Under the pieces are notes generated by a model. It worked only from the letters and a program-made list of their open reading frames with translations. It was not told where the DNA came from and did not search any database. Shown here piece after piece: positions 9,813 to 23,645 of a stretch of 39,238 bases of DNA. How positions within the stretch are numbered: position 1 is the first letter of the stretch; each line of letters opens with the position of its first letter. The DNA is taken from NCBI GenBank assembly GCA_021817065.1, contig JAKAWH010000015.1, positions 1 through 39,238 on the forward strand, in the 5' to 3' direction. A program made the translations under genes and the position numbers. This stretch comes from Actinomycetes bacterium (GTDB taxonomy: Bacteria > Actinomycetota > Acidimicrobiia > Acidimicrobiales > JAKAVM01).

Positions 9813-10862
9813 GTGGATAGGTACGACTACGGGCTACCCGAGTCGGCTGTCGCCCAGACACCCGTAGAGCCGCGAAGCGCCGCCCGGCTCCTGGACGCCC
9901 TCGATCCGGGAGGTGCCCTCGCCCATCGCAGCGTCGCCGACCTTCCCACCCTTCTCGGCCCGGGGGATCTCCTGGTGGTCAACGAGACCCGGGTAATCCC
10001 TGCGAGGATATTCCTGGAAAAGGAGGGCGGAGCCCGGGTCGAGCTCCTCCTTCTGGAACCCGTAGTGGGGGATCCACCAGGCCGGGTGGCAGGAAACCCG
10101 GGCCAGGCCGGAGGCTCCGGCGATGAGGTACAGGTGTGGCAGGCACTGGTCCGCCCCCTCAAGCGCTGCCCCCCGGGGACCAGGCTGTTGCGGCCCGGTT
10201 CGGCGGAGCAGGTGGCGGTGGTGGGGGAGCGCTGCGGAGACGGCTCCCGGGCGCGGGTTACTTTTTCGGGGAAGGTAAGACCGCGGGAGCTGGGGATTCT
10301 GGCCCTCCCCCCCTACATTCGTTCCGAGCTGGCCGATCCGGAGCGCTACCAGACCGTTTACGGAACCCGGGATGGGTCGGTCGCCGCACCCACTGCCGGT
10401 TTGCACTTCACACCGGACCTGCTGGAGCGCTGCCGGACGGTGGGTGCGAGTATCGCCACCGTCGACTTGGCAGTGGGGCTGGCCACGTTCAAGCCGATCA
10501 CCGCCTCCCGGCCCGAGGACCACCGCATGCATGCCGAACGCTATTCGGTGCCCGCCGCGACCCTGGAGGCGTGCAAGAGCGCGACCCGGGTGGTGGCGGT
10601 GGGGACCACCACCGTGCGAGCCCTGGAGGCAGCGGCCGCCACCGGGGAGCTGTCCGGGCAGACCAGCCTCTACATCCGGAGTGGTTACCCATTCCGGGTG
10701 GTTGACGTCCTGATGACCAATTTCCACCTGCCTCGCTCAAGCCTGCTTCTCCTGGTCGAGGCGTTCTGCGGGGAACGGTGGCGCGACATCTATCGTGTCG
10801 CACTTGACACCGGGTACCGGTTTCTCTCCTTCGGCGATGCGATGATCGTGGGGCGATCGTGA
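9813..10862 (+). CDS. queA: QueA, SAM:tRNA ribosyltransferase-isomerase
   Basis: QueA transfers and isomerises the ribosyl moiety of S-adenosylmethionine onto preQ1 in tRNA to make epoxyqueuosine. The 349-residue length is normal. Family motifs: DYGLPESAVAQTPVEPRSAARLL, GDLLVVNETRVIPARI, AAPTAGLHFT, VGTTTVRALE and TNFHLPRSSLLLLVEAF. The GTG start (MDRYDYGLP) matches the family N-terminus. It stands divergent to the minus-strand crotonase gene and is followed by tgt, which acts earlier in the same pathway. The 3' end (from 10836) is the template of a tandem duplication in the queA-tgt junction. Confidence 0.96.
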   Translation: MDRYDYGLPESAVAQTPVEPRSAARLLDALDPGGALAHRSVADLPTLLGPGDLLVVNETRVIPARIFLEKEGGARVELLLLEPVVGDPPGRVAGNPGQAGGSGDEVQVWQALVRPLKRCPPGTRLLRPGSAEQVAVVGERCGDGSRARVTFSGKVRPRELGILALPPYIRSELADPERYQTVYGTRDGSVAAPTAGLHFTPDLLERCRTVGASIATVDLAVGLATFKPITASRPEDHRMHAERYSVPAATLEACKSATRVVAVGTTTVRALEAAAATGELSGQTSLYIRSGYPFRVVDVLMTNFHLPRSSLLLLVEAFCGERWRDIYRVALDTGYRFLSFGDAMIVGRS

Positions 10863-10935
10863 GGATGGCCGATGCGATGATGGCGGGGCGATCGTGAGGA
10901 TGGCCGATGCGATGATGGTGGGGCAGTACCGGTGA
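10836..10935 (+). repeat. Tandem duplication of the queA 3' end, with two tiny coupled ORFs
   Basis: Units begin at 10836, 10871 and 10906 (period 35); the first is the queA 3' end. They create ORF 10859-10897 (MRMADAMMAGRS) and ORF 10894-10935 (MRMADAMMVGQYR). The queA stop overlaps the first GTG, the first ORF's stop overlaps the second GTG, and the second stop overlaps the tgt GTG, each as GTGA. Start spacings are 35 and 38, both 2 modulo 3. The third unit has diverged, yet the overlap with tgt is exact. Confidence 0.75.
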
Positions 10936-15698: not shown

Positions 15699-17903
15699 AT
15701 GACCTCGATGATCGATCACGCCAAGGTCACCCTCGGCATCGAGGCGGTTCTCGACGCTTATCGGGAGCACCGGCCGGGGGGGGATGTCGAGCTGATCTCC
15801 CGGGGGTTCGCCTTCGCCGAGAGGGTCCACCGCGGCCAGAGCCGGGCATCAGGCGACCCCTTCATAACCCATCCCCTCAGCGTGGCCCAGGTGGTGGCCG
15901 AGTTGGGGCTGGACGACATCTCGGTAGCGGCGGCCCTCCTGCACGACACGGTGGAGGATACCGATACGACCCTGGAAGAGATCGAGACGGAGTTCGGGGC
16001 CCACATCGCCGCACTGGTCGACTCGCTCACCAAGCTGGATCGCCTCAATTTCGATTCCAAGGAGGCCCAGCAGGCAGCCACCATCCGAAAGCTGCTGGTC
16101 GCGATGGCCGAAGACTGGCGGGTGCTGGTGATCAAGCTGGCGGACAGGCTCCACAACATCCGGACCGCAGCCGCTCTTCCGGAATGGAAGAGCGAGCGGT
16201 TGGCTCACGAGACCATGGACATCTATGCCCCTCTGGCCCATCGCCTCGGGATACAGGAGATCAAATGGCAACTGGAGGACCTCTCGTTCCAAGTGCTCCT
16301 TCCCGGACCGTATCGGGAGATTACCCAATTGGTCGATCGCCGCTCCCCGGAGAGGCAGGTGTTCCTCAGGGAGCTGATAGAGGCGGTCGGCCACCGATTG
16401 AGCGAAGCTGGCATCGTTGCCGAAGTGACTGGCCGTCCCAAGCACCACTGGAGCATCTACGAGAAGATGGTGATCAAGGGCAAGGAGTTCAACGAGATCT
16501 ACGACTTGATGGGAGTGCGGATCATCGTGGACTCGCCAAGAGATTGCTGGGCTGCGGTGGGAGTGGTGCACGGGCTGTGGAACCCGGTCCAGGGGCGGTT
16601 CAAGGACTACATCAACTCTCCGAAGTTCAATATGTACCAGTCGTTGCACACGACCGTGGTAGGGCCGGGAGGCAAGGCGGTGGAAGTCCAGATCCGTACC
16701 CGGGAGATGCATCGCACCGCCGAGTACGGAGTCGCCGCACATTGGGGATACAAGGACGGGGAGGCTTCCGCTGCGGAGGTCGCCTGGGTCCAGCGTTTGG
16801 TCGACTGGCAGGCCGAGACGCCCGATCCGGCCGAGTTCATGGAGTCCCTCAAGCTCGATCTGGTGCGCGACGAGGTCTACGTGTTCACCCCCAAGGGGAA
16901 GGTGATGACCCTTCCGGCAGGTTCGACCCCCATCGATTTCGCGTACGCGGTGCACACCGAGGTGGGGCACCGCTGCATCGGCGCCAAGGTCAATGACCGC
17001 CTGGTCCCTCTCGACACCGTGCTCCATTCGGGTGAGACCATCGAGGTGATCACCTCCAAGTCGGAGGCAGCGGGGCCTTCGCGCGATTGGGTGAACATCG
17101 TGCACTCGCCTCGCGCCCGTACCAAGATCCGCCAGTGGTTCTCCCGGGAGAGGCGGGAGGACGCGATCGAGTCGGGTAGGGAGGAGCTGGCCAAAGCGCT
17201 TCGGCGGGAGGGGATGCCGGTCCAGAAGCTCGCCGGATCCGAGGCAATGGTCCATGTGGGCGGTGAGCTCGGGTACGCCAACCTGGAGGCCCTCCACGCC
17301 GCCATCGGGGAAGGGCATATTTCATCACGATCTATTGTCCAACGGCTGGCGAAGGAACTGGCGGGCGAGGAGCCCGAGGAGCATCTTCCCACCACTGCCC
17401 GCCGGCCATCCCGGGCGCTGCCGCCGGGGAGGGTGGGTGTATTCGTCGAGGGACTCGACGACATGATGATCCGTCTCTCCCGATGTTGCACGCCGGTGCC
17501 CGGGGACGAGATAGTCGGCTTCGTCACCCGGGGGAGGGGGGTGTCGGTCCACCGGTCGGACTGTGCCAACGCGCTGTCCCTCTCCGGGGACCACACCGAG
17601 CGGATGATCGAAGTGGAATGGGATCATTCCAAACCGGGGACTTTTGTCGCGTGCATCGAAGTTCGCTCTCTCGACAGGGCCTCTCTGTTGACCGATGTGA
17701 GCCGTGTGCTGTCGGAGAACCATCTGAACATCCTTTCGTCAGCGTCGCGGGCGGGTCCCGATCGGGTGAGCAGGATGTCCTTCGAGGTCGAATTGGCCGA
17801 CTCAGAGCATCTCGAGTCGGTTATCGCTGCGCTCAAACGGCTCGACTGCGTCTACGAGGCGTACCGGGTCACCCCGGGAGGGGCGGGCAGGTCCCGGGAC
17901 TAG
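15699..17903 (+). CDS. rel: Bifunctional (p)ppGpp synthetase/hydrolase, Rel/SpoT family
   Basis: Controls the stringent response by making and degrading (p)ppGpp. The 734-residue protein shows the full order: HD hydrolase domain (about 25-180, with THPLSVAQVV and LLHDTVEDTD), synthetase domain (about 220-350, with GRPKHHWSIYEKM, FNEIYDLMGVRIIVD and RFKDYINSPK), TGS (about 395-455, YVFTPKGKVMTLPAG), a helical and zinc-finger-like region with CCTPVPGDEIVGF, and a C-terminal ACT domain (about 655-725). Both catalytic halves look intact. The ATG at 15699 gives the usual N-terminus. The 121-base gap before it has a weak TACACT at 15632-15637 and a 6-bp stem GCTCGC/GCGAGC (15588-15612). It converges on vapC with nine bases between stops. 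Confidence 0.96.
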   Translation: MTSMIDHAKVTLGIEAVLDAYREHRPGGDVELISRGFAFAERVHRGQSRASGDPFITHPLSVAQVVAELGLDDISVAAALLHDTVEDTDTTLEEIETEFGAHIAALVDSLTKLDRLNFDSKEAQQAATIRKLLVAMAEDWRVLVIKLADRLHNIRTAAALPEWKSERLAHETMDIYAPLAHRLGIQEIKWQLEDLSFQVLLPGPYREITQLVDRRSPERQVFLRELIEAVGHRLSEAGIVAEVTGRPKHHWSIYEKMVIKGKEFNEIYDLMGVRIIVDSPRDCWAAVGVVHGLWNPVQGRFKDYINSPKFNMYQSLHTTVVGPGGKAVEVQIRTREMHRTAEYGVAAHWGYKDGEASAAEVAWVQRLVDWQAETPDPAEFMESLKLDLVRDEVYVFTPKGKVMTLPAGSTPIDFAYAVHTEVGHRCIGAKVNDRLVPLDTVLHSGETIEVITSKSEAAGPSRDWVNIVHSPRARTKIRQWFSRERREDAIESGREELAKALRREGMPVQKLAGSEAMVHVGGELGYANLEALHAAIGEGHISSRSIVQRLAKELAGEEPEEHLPTTARRPSRALPPGRVGVFVEGLDDMMIRLSRCCTPVPGDEIVGFVTRGRGVSVHRSDCANALSLSGDHTERMIEVEWDHSKPGTFVACIEVRSLDRASLLTDVSRVLSENHLNILSSASRAGPDRVSRMSFEVELADSEHLESVIAALKRLDCVYEAYRVTPGGAGRSRD

Positions 17904-17912
17904 CGCGGGCGC

Positions 17913-18323
17913 TCAGATACTGCCTCGCGGCGCGATCCACTCGGTCGGTTGGCCCGTCACGGCGCCGATACGATCGAAGTCTTCGTCGTAATGCAACACG
18001 ATTCTGTCCGCAGACTCGGCGGCTGCGGCGATCAAAAGATCGGCGATCTTGACGCTTCGATGATGGAGCCCGCCAGCACGGGACAGGAGAGCTTGGACCT
18101 GAAGGGCGCGCGCGTAGGCGTCATCTCCCAGGGCAATAGGAGCAAGGCCGGTGAGCTCGTCGGCAAGGGCCTGGTAATCGGATGCAGACCGAGCCGAGTA
18201 GAGGATCTCCAGCCGGACCTGGTCACAGATGCCGATCTGGTCGGATTCGAGGCAGGTGCGCCACCGGGATGCGACATCGGGGTGCCCAGCACGGTGCCAT
18301 GCGCTGGTGTCGATGCAGTACAA
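17913..18323 (-). CDS. vapC: VapC-type PIN-domain ribonuclease toxin
   Basis: The 136-residue protein is a complete PIN domain. Acidic metal ligands are visible at CIDTSAW (residue 5), RLEILYSA, IADLLIAAAAE and YDEDFDRIG. VapC toxins cut RNA, often tRNA or rRNA, and are held inactive by VapB. The start is taken as TTG at 18321-18323, because the first aspartate is only four codons further in. No clear ribosome-binding site precedes it. The frame continues open upstream through the 18-bp repeat, reading (LNPPDP) units without ATG or GTG. The antitoxin gene is 92 bases upstream, much farther than in typical pairs. Confidence 0.88.
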   Translation of the reverse strand: MYCIDTSAWHRAGHPDVASRWRTCLESDQIGICDQVRLEILYSARSASDYQALADELTGLAPIALGDDAYARALQVQALLSRAGGLHHRSVKIADLLIAAAAESADRIVLHYDEDFDRIGAVTGQPTEWIAPRGSI

Positions 18324-18330
18324 CTTTACC

Positions 18331-18430
18331 GGGTCGGGCGGGTTCAGCGGGTCGGGCGGGTTCAGCGGGTCGGGCGGGTTCAGCGGGTCGGGCGGGTTCA
18401 GCGGGTCGGGCGGGTTCAGCAGGTCGGGCG
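18331..18430 (-). repeat. 18-bp minisatellite between vapB and vapC
   Basis: Five perfect 18-base units (18331-18348, 18349-18366, 18367-18384, 18385-18402, 18403-18420) plus a partial one to 18430 fill the gap between antitoxin and toxin. The unit is a copy of the antitoxin's 3' end, so every unit carries TGA in the antitoxin frame. In the toxin frame each unit reads LNPPDP and stays open into vapC. The unit length is a multiple of three, so both properties hold for any copy number. Confidence 0.95.
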
Positions 18431-18628
18431 AGACTCGGCGAGGGTCGCCGGTGACAAGTCGATACCTTCCCTCGTCTCGATCCGGGTGGCCAGCCGCCGG
18501 CGGAGGTGGTGGCGCACCGCCTCCCGCAAGGCGGAATCGACGGTGTCCTTGAGACCGGCGGTACCGAGGGCCTCTTGGGCTCTTCTCAGCAGTACGTCAT
18601 CCACATCGAGTGTTGTACGTCGCGTCAT
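18416..18628 (-). CDS. vapB: VapB-type antitoxin
   Basis: The 70-residue protein has the layout of short VapB/DUF2191-type antitoxins. [22 protein letters not shown] is a DNA-binding N-terminal half, followed by a helix with [12 protein letters not shown] and a basic stretch HHLRRRL. The C-terminal tail (residues about 50-70) would neutralise the PIN toxin encoded downstream. The ATG is divergent to hisS. An AT-rich interval with inverted repeats immediately upstream could be its autoregulatory operator. The last codons (CGCCCGACC, one more codon, TGA) are the seed of the repeat that separates it from vapC. Confidence 0.88.
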
Positions 18629-18753: not shown

Positions 18754-20058
18754 ATGTCGAAAAGCGATGCCCGGGCGCAGTTTCGCGCGCCGGTGGGCAC
18801 TCGAGACATCGTGCCACCCGAGTCAGCCGGGTTCCAGAGGTTGGTGAACCTCTTCGCCGAGCACGCCCGGCTCGCAGGATACGGGCTGGTGGTGAGCCCG
18901 CTCTTCGAGGAAGTGGGGGTGTTCGCCCGCGGGGTAGGCACCTCCACCGACATCGTGGCCAAGGAGATGTACGAGTTCGAGGACAAGGGGGGTCGCTCGA
19001 TGGCACTCCGTCCCGAGGGAACCGCATCGGTGGTGCGCTCCTTCGTGGAGAACCCCCCGCCGGTCCTGCCCTGGAAGGTGTGGTACTGGGGTCCGATGTT
19101 CCGCTACGAGCGGCCCCAGGCCGGCCGGTATCGCCAGTTCCACCAGGTGGGGGCGGAGGCGATCGGCACCGACGATCCGGAGGCCGACGTGGAGATGATC
19201 GCCCTGGCGTGGGACTACTTCGAAGGGGTGGGGGTGGGGGACAAGACCCTCTCGATCAACTCACTCGGAGATGCCCGGTGCCGACCGGATTACCGCGAGA
19301 AGCTGATGGTGTATCTGGCCGGGAGGGAGGAAGACCTGTGCGCCGAGCACCGAAAGCGCTACCGCGAGAACCCGTTGAGGGTGCTCGACTGCAAGAAAGC
19401 CGAATGCGTGGCGGCAACGTCTGACGCACCCCGCCAGGTCGATAGCCTGTGCGCGGAGTGTGAAGACGCCTTCGGTCGAGTGACGACCGCGCTCGCCGCC
19501 CTCTCCATCGACTACGTCCTCCAACCGCGCCTGGTTCGCGGCCTCGACTACTACACCCGGACCACCTTCGAGATCGCAGCGGGGAGCCTCGACGCTGCCC
19601 AGAACGCAATTGGGGGAGGGGGGCGCTACGACGGACTGGTGGAGTCGTTGGGCGGGCCTCCCACGCCGGCGGTCGGATTCAGCGCGGGGATCGAGCGTGT
19701 CGCCCTCGCTCTGGTCGCCGAGCGGGGTACCGAGCAGAGTTCCGAAGCACCCGATGTGTTCGTGGTGGACCTGTGCGGCGGCGTTGCCTCGGTGCTGGCC
19801 CGCGATCTCCGGCGCGCGGGGATAGCGGTGGCGCGGGACTTCGGCGGGCGCTCGACCAAGGCCCAGTTCAAGGCTGCCGATCGCTCGGGTGCTCGATTCG
19901 CCCTGGTGGTCGGGCCGGACGAGGTAGCCGCCGGTACCGTGTCCCTCAAGTCGCTCCGGGAGGCGGATGCCTCCCCGGGATCGCCCCGCCCCGAGAACAC
20001 CCAGACCGCCCTTCCCCGCGCCACAATCGCCATCGAGATGAAGAGGATATTATCGTGA
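18754..20058 (+). CDS. hisS: Histidyl-tRNA synthetase
   Basis: The 434-residue class II synthetase charges tRNA-His. Visible motifs: FRAPVGTRDIVPPES (N-terminal family signature), ALRPEGTASVVRSF (motif 1/2 region), FRYERPQAGRYRQFHQVGAEAIG (motif 2), the histidine-specific LVRGLDYYTRTTFEI, and GGGGRYDGL with VGFSAGIERV (motif 3). A C-terminal anticodon-binding domain (about 330-434) follows. The ATG start is supported by the close -10-like element. Its stop overlaps the aspS GTG as GTGA, as in the actinobacterial hisS-aspS arrangement. Confidence 0.96.
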   Translation: MSKSDARAQFRAPVGTRDIVPPESAGFQRLVNLFAEHARLAGYGLVVSPLFEEVGVFARGVGTSTDIVAKEMYEFEDKGGRSMALRPEGTASVVRSFVENPPPVLPWKVWYWGPMFRYERPQAGRYRQFHQVGAEAIGTDDPEADVEMIALAWDYFEGVGVGDKTLSINSLGDARCRPDYREKLMVYLAGREEDLCAEHRKRYRENPLRVLDCKKAECVAATSDAPRQVDSLCAECEDAFGRVTTALAALSIDYVLQPRLVRGLDYYTRTTFEIAAGSLDAAQNAIGGGGRYDGLVESLGGPPTPAVGFSAGIERVALALVAERGTEQSSEAPDVFVVDLCGGVASVLARDLRRAGIAVARDFGGRSTKAQFKAADRSGARFALVVGPDEVAAGTVSLKSLREADASPGSPRPENTQTALPRATIAIEMKRILS

Positions 20059-21839
20059 CACGTTATGGTAGCCCTGCGGGGATGCGAACCCGCTGGTGCG
20101 GTGAGTTGGGCATCGGGGACGTCGGGGAGGCGGTGGAGCTGTGCGGGTGGGTGGCCCGGCGGCGTGAGCACTCCGCCCATCTCGCCTTCGTCGACCTGCG
20201 GGACCGTACCGGGATCGTCCAGTGCGTGGTGGATGGAGCCGCCGACCTCCGCGCCGAGTACGTGGTGCGGGTGACCGGGACGGTGACCGCCCGCCCGGAG
20301 GGAACGGTGAACCCGAGCCTCGCTACCGGCCAGGTCGAGGTGAGCGGATGTGCGGTGGAGATCCTCAACGAGGCGGAGCCCCCGCCCTTTTCCCTCGAAG
20401 AATGGTCGGAGGCCGACGAGGCGATACGTCTTCGATACCGCTTCGTCGACATGCGCCGGGAGAGGTTGCAGAAGAACCTCGTGATGCGATCTACTATCAA
20501 CGCGGCGATCCGGGCCTCGATGTTCGCGCAGGGATTCACCGAGGTGGAGACCCCGCTGCTGTGGACGCCCACTCCCGAGGGTGCCCGGGAGTTCGCGGTC
20601 CCGTCGCGCCTGCAACAAGGCTCCTTCTACGTCTTGCCCCAGAGCCCCCAGATCGCCAAGCAGCTTCTCATGGTGGCGGGAGTGGACCGCTATTACCAGA
20701 TCGCCCGGTGTCTCCGTGACGAGGACCTGCGGGCCGATCGCCAGTTCGAGTTCACCCAGCTCGATATCGAAGCGTCCTTCGTCGGAGTGGAGGACGTGCT
20801 GGGTTTCGTCGAGGAGGCGGTCCTCGACGCAGTCGAGGCAGTCACCGGGGCCCGTCCAGAGGTACCGGTCCGGATGACCTGGAGGGAGGCACTGGAGCGC
20901 TTCGGCACCGACAAGCCGGACCTGCGTTACGGAATGGAGCTGACCGATCTCGCCGAGGTATTGGCCGGGACCGGGTTCAACGCTTTCAAGGCGGAAGCGG
21001 TCCGTGCGATCTGCGTCCCCGGTGCGGCAGACTCATCGCGCTCCAAACTGGACGGGCTGGTGGAGCGTGCCAAGTCGCTGGGGGCTGCGGGGCTGGTGTG
21101 GATGCGGGTCGTCGCTCCGGCCGGCGACGACACGGCGACCGAGCCCCGCGCGAAGGTCGCCGACCTGGAATCCCCGGTCGCCAAGTTCCTCTCCGATGAC
21201 GAGAGGAACGGGATCGTCGCCGCCTGCGGGGCGAAGCCCGGCGACCTGTTGCTGGTGGTGGCGGGGGAGCACGATCGTGCCTGCCGAGTGCTCGGGCAGT
21301 TGCGGGTGGACCTGGGCCGACCGCCGGTTGCCGAGGGGGGGCTGAGGTTCGTATGGGTGACCGAGTTCCCCCTTTTCGACGGGCTCGACGAGGAGGGGAA
21401 TCCCATGGCTGCCCATCACCCTTTCACCATGCCTCATGCCGACGACCTGGACCTCCTTGGCAAGGACCCCTTAAGCGTGCGATCCCTTGCCTATGACCTG
21501 GTGCTGAACGGATGGGAGCTGGGATCGGGGAGCATCCGGATTCACCGTGCCGATATCCAGTCCCAGGTGTTTGCCACCTTGGGTATCTCCGAGGAAGAAG
21601 CCGAAGAGCGGTTCGGCTTCCTCACCGGGGCATTTCGCTACGGTGCCCCTCCCCACGGAGGTTTTGCGGTGGGGCTGGACCGCCTCACTGCCTTGCTGGC
21701 TGGCGAGGAGAACATCCGCGAAGTGATCGCGTTCCCCAAGACCCAGTCGGGAGCCGACCCGATGACCGGCGCGCCCAAGCCGCTTGCCGATCGTTCCCTC
21801 CGGGAGTTGGGGATCGGCATCCTTCCCCCCAAGAGGTGA
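20055..21839 (+). CDS. aspS: Aspartyl-tRNA synthetase, probably non-discriminating
   Basis: The 594-residue bacterial-type AspRS has an N-terminal OB anticodon domain (VELCGWVARRREHSAHLAF), the class II core with YVLPQSPQIAKQLLM and YYQIARCLRDEDLRADRQFEFTQLD, the bacterial GAD insertion (about 290-430), and FAVGLDRL in motif 3. The start is GTG 20055 (MTRYGSPAG), overlapping the hisS stop; a longer upstream frame only overlaps hisS out of frame. Residue 39 is histidine in the RRREH loop, where discriminating enzymes such as E. coli have leucine. This points to an enzyme that also charges tRNA-Asn and needs GatCAB. Confidence 0.94.
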   Translation: MTRYGSPAGMRTRWCGELGIGDVGEAVELCGWVARRREHSAHLAFVDLRDRTGIVQCVVDGAADLRAEYVVRVTGTVTARPEGTVNPSLATGQVEVSGCAVEILNEAEPPPFSLEEWSEADEAIRLRYRFVDMRRERLQKNLVMRSTINAAIRASMFAQGFTEVETPLLWTPTPEGAREFAVPSRLQQGSFYVLPQSPQIAKQLLMVAGVDRYYQIARCLRDEDLRADRQFEFTQLDIEASFVGVEDVLGFVEEAVLDAVEAVTGARPEVPVRMTWREALERFGTDKPDLRYGMELTDLAEVLAGTGFNAFKAEAVRAICVPGAADSSRSKLDGLVERAKSLGAAGLVWMRVVAPAGDDTATEPRAKVADLESPVAKFLSDDERNGIVAACGAKPGDLLLVVAGEHDRACRVLGQLRVDLGRPPVAEGGLRFVWVTEFPLFDGLDEEGNPMAAHHPFTMPHADDLDLLGKDPLSVRSLAYDLVLNGWELGSGSIRIHRADIQSQVFATLGISEEEAEERFGFLTGAFRYGAPPHGGFAVGLDRLTALLAGEENIREVIAFPKTQSGADPMTGAPKPLADRSLRELGIGILPPKR

Positions 21840-21943
21840 GCCTCTTCGATTCTGCCACGCCTGGGGGGATCCCGGCCCGGTGAGCCTCTTCGATTCTGCC
21901 ACGCCTGGGGGGATCCCGGCCCGGTGAGCCTCTTCGATTCTGC
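21836..21943 (+). repeat. 44-bp tandem repeat at the aspS-rarA junction, with two identical tiny ORFs
   Basis: A 44-base unit occurs at 21836-21879 and 21880-21923, and the third copy (from 21924) is the real rarA start, identical for about 20 bases. Each unit begins with GTG and encodes MSLFDSATPGGIPAR, giving ORFs 21836-21883 and 21880-21927. The aspS stop overlaps the first GTG; each tiny ORF's TGA overlaps the next GTG as GTGA. Period 44 is 2 modulo 3, which is what makes the overlap recur. The two units are identical, so the duplication is recent or actively homogenised. Confidence 0.9.
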
Positions 21944-23330
21944 CGCCGCCGACCAGTTGGCCCGGCGGGCGCCCCTGGCAGCCCGGATGCGACCGGCTGA
22001 TCTCGACGAAGTGGTCGGGCAGACCCATCTTGTGGGTCCGGGTGGGCCGTTCCGAGCGATGCTGGAAGCCGACCGGCTCTCCTCGGTGATCCTCTGGGGT
22101 CCGCCGGGAACCGGCAAGACCACGTTGGCGCGTATAGCCGCCCGGTACACCTCCAAGGAGTTCGTCGCCCTGTCGGCCGTGACCGCCGGCGTCAAGGACG
22201 TGCGGGAAGCAGCCGATGCAGCGCGGCAACGTCTCGGGCAGTCCGGCCGAGGCACCATCCTCTTCGTCGACGAGGTGCATCGTTTCAACAAGGCCCAGCA
22301 GGATGCCCTCCTCCCCTTCGTGGAGGAAGGTCTGGTCGTGTTCATCGGGGCGACCACCGAGAACCCTTTTTTCGAGGTGAACGGGCCCCTCTTGTCCCGG
22401 TCCACCTTGCTGCGCACCGAAGCGCTGGGAGCGGACGAGGTGGTCACACTGATTTCGAGAGCCGTGGCCCGGCTGGCCTCCGACTCCGGGCGTCCCGCAG
22501 CGGCGGCCGAAGGCGTGCTGGAAGAGATCGCCGGCATCGCCGGTGGGGATGCCCGGAGGGCACTCAACGTCGTGGAGCTGCTCCACTCGCTTGCGATGGC
22601 GCATGCTCCGTCGGATTCCCGCGAGGAGGTTGTCCTCGCCTCTGCGGACATGGAGAGAGCAGGCATCGAGCGTGTCCTCTCCTATACCCGCGACTCTCAT
22701 TACGACATGGCCTCGGCGCTGATCAAGTCGGTGCGCGGTTCGGACCCGGACGCAGCGGTGTACTGGTTGGCCCGGATCATCGGCTCGGGTGGCGATCCCC
22801 GTTTCGTCGCGCGACGCCTGGTCATCGCGGCCAGCGAGGACATCGGGGAGGCGGACCCCTCCGCGCTGTGGATTGCTGTCGCCGCCGCACAGGCATTGGA
22901 GCTGGTCGGTCTGCCGGAAGCCGCGCTCAACCTGGCTCAAGCGGCGGTGCATCTGGCCACCGCTCCCAAGTCGAACAGGTCGGCCGCTGCATTGTGGGCG
23001 GCGCAGTCCCACATTGGCGAGAATCGCGGAGCACAGCCGCCGGTCCCCGCTCACCTCCGCGATTCTCACTATCGGGGGGCTTCGGCTCTCGGCCACGGCG
23101 CCGGCTACGTCTATCCTCACGACGACCCACGCGGGTGGGTCGAGCAACGATACTTACCCGATGGAGTCGGTCCGGCTACCGCCCGTCCCGGGGAGGGTCC
23201 CTTCTACCGGCCTTCGGACCATGGAGAGGAGGCGGCTATCGGCGAGCGGTTACGGCTGTTGCGCCAAGGGGGCCTCGACATCGTCGAGCCCCAGGACCTG
23301 GTCGCACTCCGCGGCCAGGCTGGCCCCTGA
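21924..23330 (+). CDS. rarA: RarA (MgsA), replication-associated AAA+ recombination protein
   Basis: RarA acts at stalled replication forks and is related to clamp-loader ATPases. The 468-residue protein shows MRPADLDEVVGQTHLVGPGGP, Walker A GPPGTGKTT, Walker B LFVDEVHRFNKAQQDALLP, sensor 1 GATTENPFFEVN, and the family helical C-terminus (YDMASALIKSVRGSDPDAAVYWLARI). The start is GTG 21924 (MSLFDSAAADQLA). The same first codons occur twice upstream in the tandem repeat. In actinobacteria rarA commonly sits between aspS and alaS, as here. Confidence 0.95.
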   Translation: MSLFDSAAADQLARRAPLAARMRPADLDEVVGQTHLVGPGGPFRAMLEADRLSSVILWGPPGTGKTTLARIAARYTSKEFVALSAVTAGVKDVREAADAARQRLGQSGRGTILFVDEVHRFNKAQQDALLPFVEEGLVVFIGATTENPFFEVNGPLLSRSTLLRTEALGADEVVTLISRAVARLASDSGRPAAAAEGVLEEIAGIAGGDARRALNVVELLHSLAMAHAPSDSREEVVLASADMERAGIERVLSYTRDSHYDMASALIKSVRGSDPDAAVYWLARIIGSGGDPRFVARRLVIAASEDIGEADPSALWIAVAAAQALELVGLPEAALNLAQAAVHLATAPKSNRSAAALWAAQSHIGENRGAQPPVPAHLRDSHYRGASALGHGAGYVYPHDDPRGWVEQRYLPDGVGPATARPGEGPFYRPSDHGEEAAIGERLRLLRQGGLDIVEPQDLVALRGQAGP

Positions 23331-23333
23331 TCG

Positions 23334-23645
23334 GTGCCCGTATACCTTGCCGACTCGTCCATCTGGGCCTGGGCCAACAAAAGGTCGCGGCCAGATATCA
23401 CTGAGAAGTTGGCTGAGCGGATCGAGCGCGACGAGGTGGCCACGTGCGTTCCGATTGCGTTGGAGGTCATGCACCGTGCTGAGACCGGTAAGCAATACGA
23501 CGAGCTGTTCGATGGCCTGCTGAAATCTCTCCGATGGTTGGATCTCGACGAGCGTGCCAGTAGGCGCGCGCTAGAAGTTCAGCATGCCTTGGCCGGTTCC
23601 ACCCACGGAGAACCCGGATGGACCCCATCAATATGGGCCACCTAG
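23334..23645 (+). pseudogene. Truncated VapC-like PIN toxin gene
   Basis: Starting with GTG three bases after the rarA stop, the frame reads MPVYLADSSIWAWANK, then IALEVMHRAETGKQYDELFDGL, both typical of VapC toxins with their first aspartate and glutamate. After ALEVQHALAG the sequence diverges (STHGEPGWTPSIWAT) and stops at 103 residues. The last third, with the remaining acidic metal ligands, is missing. No cognate antitoxin precedes it. It is probably a decayed toxin-antitoxin gene. A yoeB remnant follows. Confidence 0.75.

Follow-up and report, generated by a model that had tools for sequence, protein, structure and literature searches.

How did an antitoxin gene and its toxin gene come to be separated by a row of identical short repeats, and what does this separation mean for synthesis of the toxin? 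These questions are raised by a vapBC locus in the genome of an uncultured bacterium of the Acidimicrobiales. We analyzed the locus within a window of 39,238 nucleotides, which is one entire contig (C27) of a draft assembly comprising 169 contigs. The features needed for the argument are the following:

15699 to 17903, plus strand: relA/spoT-like gene, one flank of vapBC (open reading frame)
17913 to 18323, minus strand: vapC, PIN-domain toxin gene, start codon TTG at 18323 (open reading frame and Pfam match)
18326 to 18329, minus strand: GTAA, putative relic of the ancestral overlap of vapB stop and vapC start, aligned with GTGA or ATGA of the homologous loci L048, L135 and L046
18330 to 18419, minus strand: five perfect 18-bp units CTGAACCCGCCCGACCCG between vapB and vapC, reading TRPTR-stop in the vapB frame and LNPPDP in the vapC frame, with CTGA at each TGA
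18331 to 18414, plus strand: run of G-quadruplex motifs with three GGG runs per unit (regular-expression scan, motif only)
18416 to 18433, minus strand: sixth, diverged, founder-like copy of the unit, which is the vapB tail itself (TCT CGC CCG ACC TGC TGA, SRPTC-stop)
18416 to 18628, minus strand: vapB, antitoxin gene of 70 amino acids, ATG at 18628, TGA at 18418-18416, C-terminus ..AESRPTC
18754 to 20058, plus strand: hisS, other flank of vapBC (open reading frame; homologues 53-57% identical in five genomes)

The repeat array and its two genes

The array was called by TRF at positions 18330-18430 with a period of 18, 5.6 copies, 98% match and a score of 195, while simulated sequence of the same composition (third-order Markov, 253 kb, five repeats) did not yield any array with a score of at least 80. 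Thus, near-identical tandem units exceeding chance, the hallmark of a VNTR or minisatellite, are present between the two genes. The initial annotation had described five perfect 18-bp units carrying the vapB stop in one frame and an open LNPPDP frame in that of vapC, which was confirmed by TRF and by translation of the frames. The array as such is real, but its start had been placed at 18331 and was corrected to 18330. Each unit reads TGA ACC CGC CCG ACC CGC in the vapB frame, i.e., stop-TRPTR. In addition, two properties had been overlooked. Every TGA is overlapped by a CTG (CTGA), from which the vapC frame continues across all units; this LNPPDP frame is free of stop codons and open into VapC. 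Moreover, the copy adjoining vapC ends with CGGTAA and hence with TAA, not TGA. Within the complete 2.99-Mb draft assembly the unit was found five times, every time at vapBC; as this count was taken from one draft, the population may carry a different number of copies. The array is also the largest block of G-quadruplex motifs of the window, accounting for 84 of 231 plus-strand motif bases, and the motifs are located on the template strand of vapBC.

Both genes were assigned by Pfam with matches above the curated cut-offs, VapB to VapB_antitoxin (PF09957, E value 5.9e-7) and VapC to PIN (PF01850, E value 7.6e-12). The acidic active-site residues D5, E39, D95, D113 and D115 of VapC are intact and were invariant in 12 sequences, so that the locus combines a VapB-family antitoxin upstream of a PIN toxin with a conserved acidic PIN site. 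Homologues in Actinomycetota, Acidobacteriota and other groups agree with the locus in both genes, their order, the frame relation and the catalytic residues. By sequence, membership of the locus in the VapBC family appears well supported.

Reconstruction of the ancestral junction

The VapB proteins of the homologous loci L048 and L046, whose VapC proteins are 65% and 62% identical to that of the window, end with ERTRPTR and AASRPLR, respectively, compared to AESRPTC in the window. Since the units spell TRPTR-stop like the VapB ends of these relatives, they can be regarded as copies of the last five codons of the antitoxin gene and its stop codon. This finding lends strong support to the earlier proposal of an array built from the 3′-end of the antitoxin gene, as TRPTR-stop is the very VapB C-terminus of L048.

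The spacing of the genes fits as well. In homologues for which our script found both genes, the distance between the end of the vapB stop and the codon for the first catalytic Asp of VapC amounts to 11-25 nt, with 14 nt in the closest group (L046, L047, L048 and L049). The corresponding distance in the window is 104 nt, which equals 14 + 5 x 18, while it is 14 nt if counted from the TAA of the last copy. The displacement of the toxin, previously estimated at about 90 bases, turned out to be exact (104 nt versus 14 nt in the nearest relatives). A short or overlapping junction is typical, albeit not obligatory, for the VapBC family. The junction under study departs from it both in length (104 nt versus 11-25 nt) and in the change of the start codon from GTG to GTA.

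Members of the closest group share an NTGA overlap (ATGA, GTGA or TTGA) between the vapB stop and the vapC start. The junction of L048 is AGG TGA CA CTT TGG TGC, with a GTG start within GTGACA, and that of L135 reads GTG ACG TTG TAC TGC GTC GAC (GTGACGTTGTACTGCGTC). The window sequence GTA AAG TTG TAC TGC ATC GAC (GTAAAGTTGTACTGCATC) aligns with the GTG starts of both. Hence the ancestral vapC start was most likely a GTG that has become GTA, and, judged from the same alignment, the TTG start of today corresponds to an internal Leu codon of the relatives. The exchange of GTG for GTA does not cost vapB anything, because vapB now stops 90 nt upstream. L135 (G563:C1:1251523-1251936), whose VapC is 65% identical and among the closest, showed a peculiarity of its own, in that TGA replaces Trp9 in an otherwise intact frame and a disabled toxin stands next to an intact, kept antitoxin.

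The genomic neighborhood was compared with that of related genomes. In three genomes of the same family (G001, G002, G003) and in one of the same order (G006), relA and hisS are adjacent and no match to vapB or vapC was found between them. As these genes are neighbors without vapBC in the relatives, vapBC was either inserted or locally retained as a module in the lineage of the window. A second vapBC pair of the same genome (L027) possesses an ordinary overlap, the GTG being located on a Trp codon of vapB, with 17 nt to the Asp codon. Another VapC-like sequence lies at 23343-23600 directly after the rarA stop. It is an N-terminal fragment, 32% identical over residues 2-85, in a frame of approximately 104 amino acids; the match does not include the C-terminal acidic motif, and the fragment is apparently a toxin remnant.

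Searches for the array elsewhere gave negative results. A query of two units was not found with up to three mismatches in 394 other genomes of the same class, nor as an exact match in viral contigs. Among GTDB contigs, the relatives are at most 65% identical and all lack the array. The genomes of the same family that were searched are devoid of this vapC, and none of the genomes searched belonged to the same genus. With a unit unique to the locus and absent from the class genomes and viral contigs, an origin of the array as a dispersed repeat, a mobile element or viral DNA is unsupported.

Probable consequences for the synthesis of VapC

In the vapC frame, TTG 18323 is the only ATG, GTG or TTG upstream of the toxin. 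This TTG lies 92 nt beyond the stop codon of vapB, and the strongest anti-SD pairing available to it is weak (-3.0 kcal/mol); it had rightly been noted that the toxin has no other conventional start and lacks a clear ribosome site. For the CTGs at the TGAs, the best nearby pairing was -2.5 kcal/mol or none. The vapC starts of the relatives are likewise poor in SD pairing, except that of L047. Since most relatives do without a good SD sequence and depend on the overlap of stop and start, the telling change is the loss of the overlap from GTGA to GTAA. Relatives have VapBC operons with overlapping genes, whereas in the window the overlap is lost, 90 bp of vapB-tail repeats lie between the genes and the former start is GTA.

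In native gene pairs, coupling is best at distances of -4 to +3 nt and there is little or none beyond 30-40 nt, whereas in one artificial E. coli system coupling declines more slowly and is still partly present at +50 to +350 nt (PMC12548453). The latter finding implies that uncoupling of vapBC may be incomplete. Relative to AUG, initiation in E. coli amounts to 29.8% for UUG and to 0.86% for CUG (PMC11497404). With its only conventional start at this distance and a weak SD, VapC is expected to be synthesized at a low level and largely without coupling to vapB, though an unseen promoter or a leaderless transcript could feed vapC.

We consider it probable (about 0.6) that a tandem duplication of the 3′-terminal 18 bp of vapB struck a coupled vapBC overlap, leaving VapC weakly made and largely uncoupled. 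The ancestor would have been a translationally coupled operon with a -4 (NTGA) stop/start overlap, onto which the last 18 bp of vapB were duplicated in tandem. The VapB C-terminus is of normal length because the first stop is still used, and five extra TRPTR-stop copies then separate vapB from vapC. Ribosomes ending vapB would thus meet no good overlapping start, which would result in a low level of VapC. The protein would mainly be initiated at TTG 18323, approximately 90 nt downstream and largely uncoupled, while the CTGs overlapping the TGAs may give traces of VapC with an N-terminal (LNPPDP)n extension. As a net effect, the toxin-to-antitoxin ratio would be lowered. The array itself presumably originated like the numerous other young minisatellites in the genome and not as a dedicated switch. 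The locus is a clear natural example of a tandem repeat that separates the genes of a toxin-antitoxin pair by a precisely defined distance, and its ancestral junction can be recovered from relatives; it is a ready test of how much overlap-based coupling matters for the toxin dose.

Should the module be decaying instead, vapC would be silent or nearly so after loss of its start and coupling, and the array would be debris at an unselected junction. We regard this as rather unlikely, even though the ancestral GTG is now GTA, the nearest homologue by identity (L135, 65%) carries a stop at W9 of vapC and a truncated vapC-like frame is present just after rarA in the window. The vapC frame has its full length with every catalytic acid conserved, the coding bias is retained (0.20, similar to the 0.22-0.25 of aspS and rarA) and an in-frame TTG is located at a workable position. 

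Less probable still is that VapC is mainly produced by termination-reinitiation at CTGA and therefore carries (LNPPDP)5-VK in front of the PIN domain. The CTG does stand at -4, where the relatives have ATG, GTG or TTG, and is in frame through all units, and an array of the same genome (L078, see below) shares the in-frame layout, there with GTG. However, initiation at CUG is extremely inefficient (0.86% of AUG; PMC11497404), and anti-SD pairing at the CTGs reaches -2.5 kcal/mol at best, if there is any.

We are also doubtful, and somewhat more so, about an adaptive tuner, in which gain or loss of units would alter the spacing or, in CTG-started products, the length of the linker, and thereby set the VapC dose in the population. 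Perfect units and the G-quadruplex block are compatible with a recent and continuing instability. A precedent exists in Mycobacterium tuberculosis, where strains differ in the length of the rnc-fpg1 tandem repeat (ETR-F/VNTR3239), and this length correlates with the expression of fpg1 (PMC2734929). As at rnc-fpg1, the repeats have expanded between neighboring genes that nearly touch in other species; but whereas the mycobacterial repeat is variable in length between strains, the vapBC array is known from one allele, and no second strain or species with it was found in the genomes searched. Similar arrays are moreover numerous in the genome and do not share a common target. A unit of 18 bp (3 x 6) preserves the reading frame, which excludes on/off switching by phase variation in principle.

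An assembly artefact affecting the copy number or the array itself is very unlikely: the assembly is a draft of 169 contigs, but common short reads are longer than the array (101 bp), the excess in spacing corresponds to exactly five units at a junction that is well conserved, and the genes on either side are intact. Finally, the suggested ribosomal frameshift near the vapB stop, yielding a VapB-linker-VapC fusion, was not supported and has hardly any probability, since it would have to be a programmed -1 event, no X XXY YYZ slippery heptamer precedes the TGA and every relative has separate genes making two proteins; it is true that no stop codon interrupts the vapC frame upstream over the array and a large part of vapB, but such long open frames are common in this GC-rich DNA.

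Minisatellites at stop/start overlaps of the genome

Arrays with at least 95% identity, here called near-perfect, were sought in a sample of 1.70 Mb (57%) of the genome (loci L028-L045, L068-L087 and L142-L221 of G000). We found 75 of them, i.e., 4.4 per 100 kb, compared to two in 308 kb of six related genomes. Examples are a 7-bp unit present 17 times (L039, 2419-2537) and a 15-bp unit present 9.1 times (L069, 926-1062). The lengths of the near-perfect arrays are concentrated at 50-175 bp, a pattern that would result if longer arrays were lost or collapsed. A quadruplex motif was dismissed as their general cause, as only three of 32 near-perfect arrays of the first 519-kb sample carry one, and is kept as a local remark on vapBC.

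Seven of the 75 arrays are cleanly located on an NTGA overlap of stop and start, with gene boundaries inferred from codon bias instead of a gene caller. For random segments of array length 2.7 were expected (p = 0.018), for random segments of unit length 0.7. The idea of NTGA junctions as target had been formed on part of the sample, while the clean cases L188 and L221 came from stretches fetched afterwards. Besides vapBC, the junction arrays are:

21835 to 21944 of the window: array at the aspS stop and rarA start, 44-bp unit x 2.5, perfect, with three GTGA copies and the true rarA start at 21924
L045, 7286 to 7422, and L165, 12016 to 12138: chains of mini-ORFs with NTGA overlaps, unrelated units
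L188, 10093 to 10235, and L221, 18016 to 18123: chains of mini-ORFs with NTGA overlaps, unrelated units
L078, 12756 to 12854: in-frame extension with NTGA overlap, unrelated unit, GTG

At aspS, the stop overlaps the GTG of a 15-codon frame (MSLFDSATPGGIPAR); the stop of this frame in turn overlaps the following GTG, and the chain continues in this way to rarA. Two of these mini-ORFs precede the rarA start, a layout resembling that of MIRUs. Five of the seven junction arrays exhibit the chain form (period 2 mod 3); vapBC and L078 are of the in-frame form (0 mod 3). In simulated duplications at 174 NTGA junctions, the coupling path was kept in about 82% by geometry alone, because a mini-ORF is composed of the head of one gene and the tail of the other in their own frames. 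Selection for unit lengths that preserve coupling was therefore dropped as an explanation: all seven arrays preserve it, but seven of seven are expected by chance with p = 0.25. The excess at junctions may only reflect that repeats shifting the frame are not tolerated inside genes.

The mycobacterial MIRU-VNTRs, e.g., at senX3-regX3, are described in PMC12548453, after Supply 1997, as tandem repeats at -4 overlaps in operons, formed by dispersed, related elements of about 40-100 bp with a small ORF that keeps coupling. The vapBC array is similar in that it also consists of tandem repeats at a -4 stop/start overlap inside an operon. Unlike MIRUs, its unit is only 18 bp long, was locally born from vapB, occurs at this one locus and provides CTG as the overlapping codon. 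As related copies at many loci are lacking and the CTG frame runs into vapC instead of forming a self-contained NTGA ORF (period 0 mod 3), it is not a MIRU.

It is conceivable, though rather unlikely, that young minisatellites of this genome repeatedly land on NTGA overlaps and create MIRU-like chains of mini-ORFs or in-frame extensions, the unit number setting the output of the downstream gene, here the toxin. In that case, local duplication would generate a MIRU-like architecture de novo, with no mobile element involved. Together, vapBC and the other junction arrays suggest how operons tolerate internal insertions of repeats. Two more tandem arrays were detected in the window, at 10835-10924 (35-bp unit x 2.6, 94%), at or near the edge of an open reading frame, and at 52-146 (36-bp unit x 2.8, 90%).
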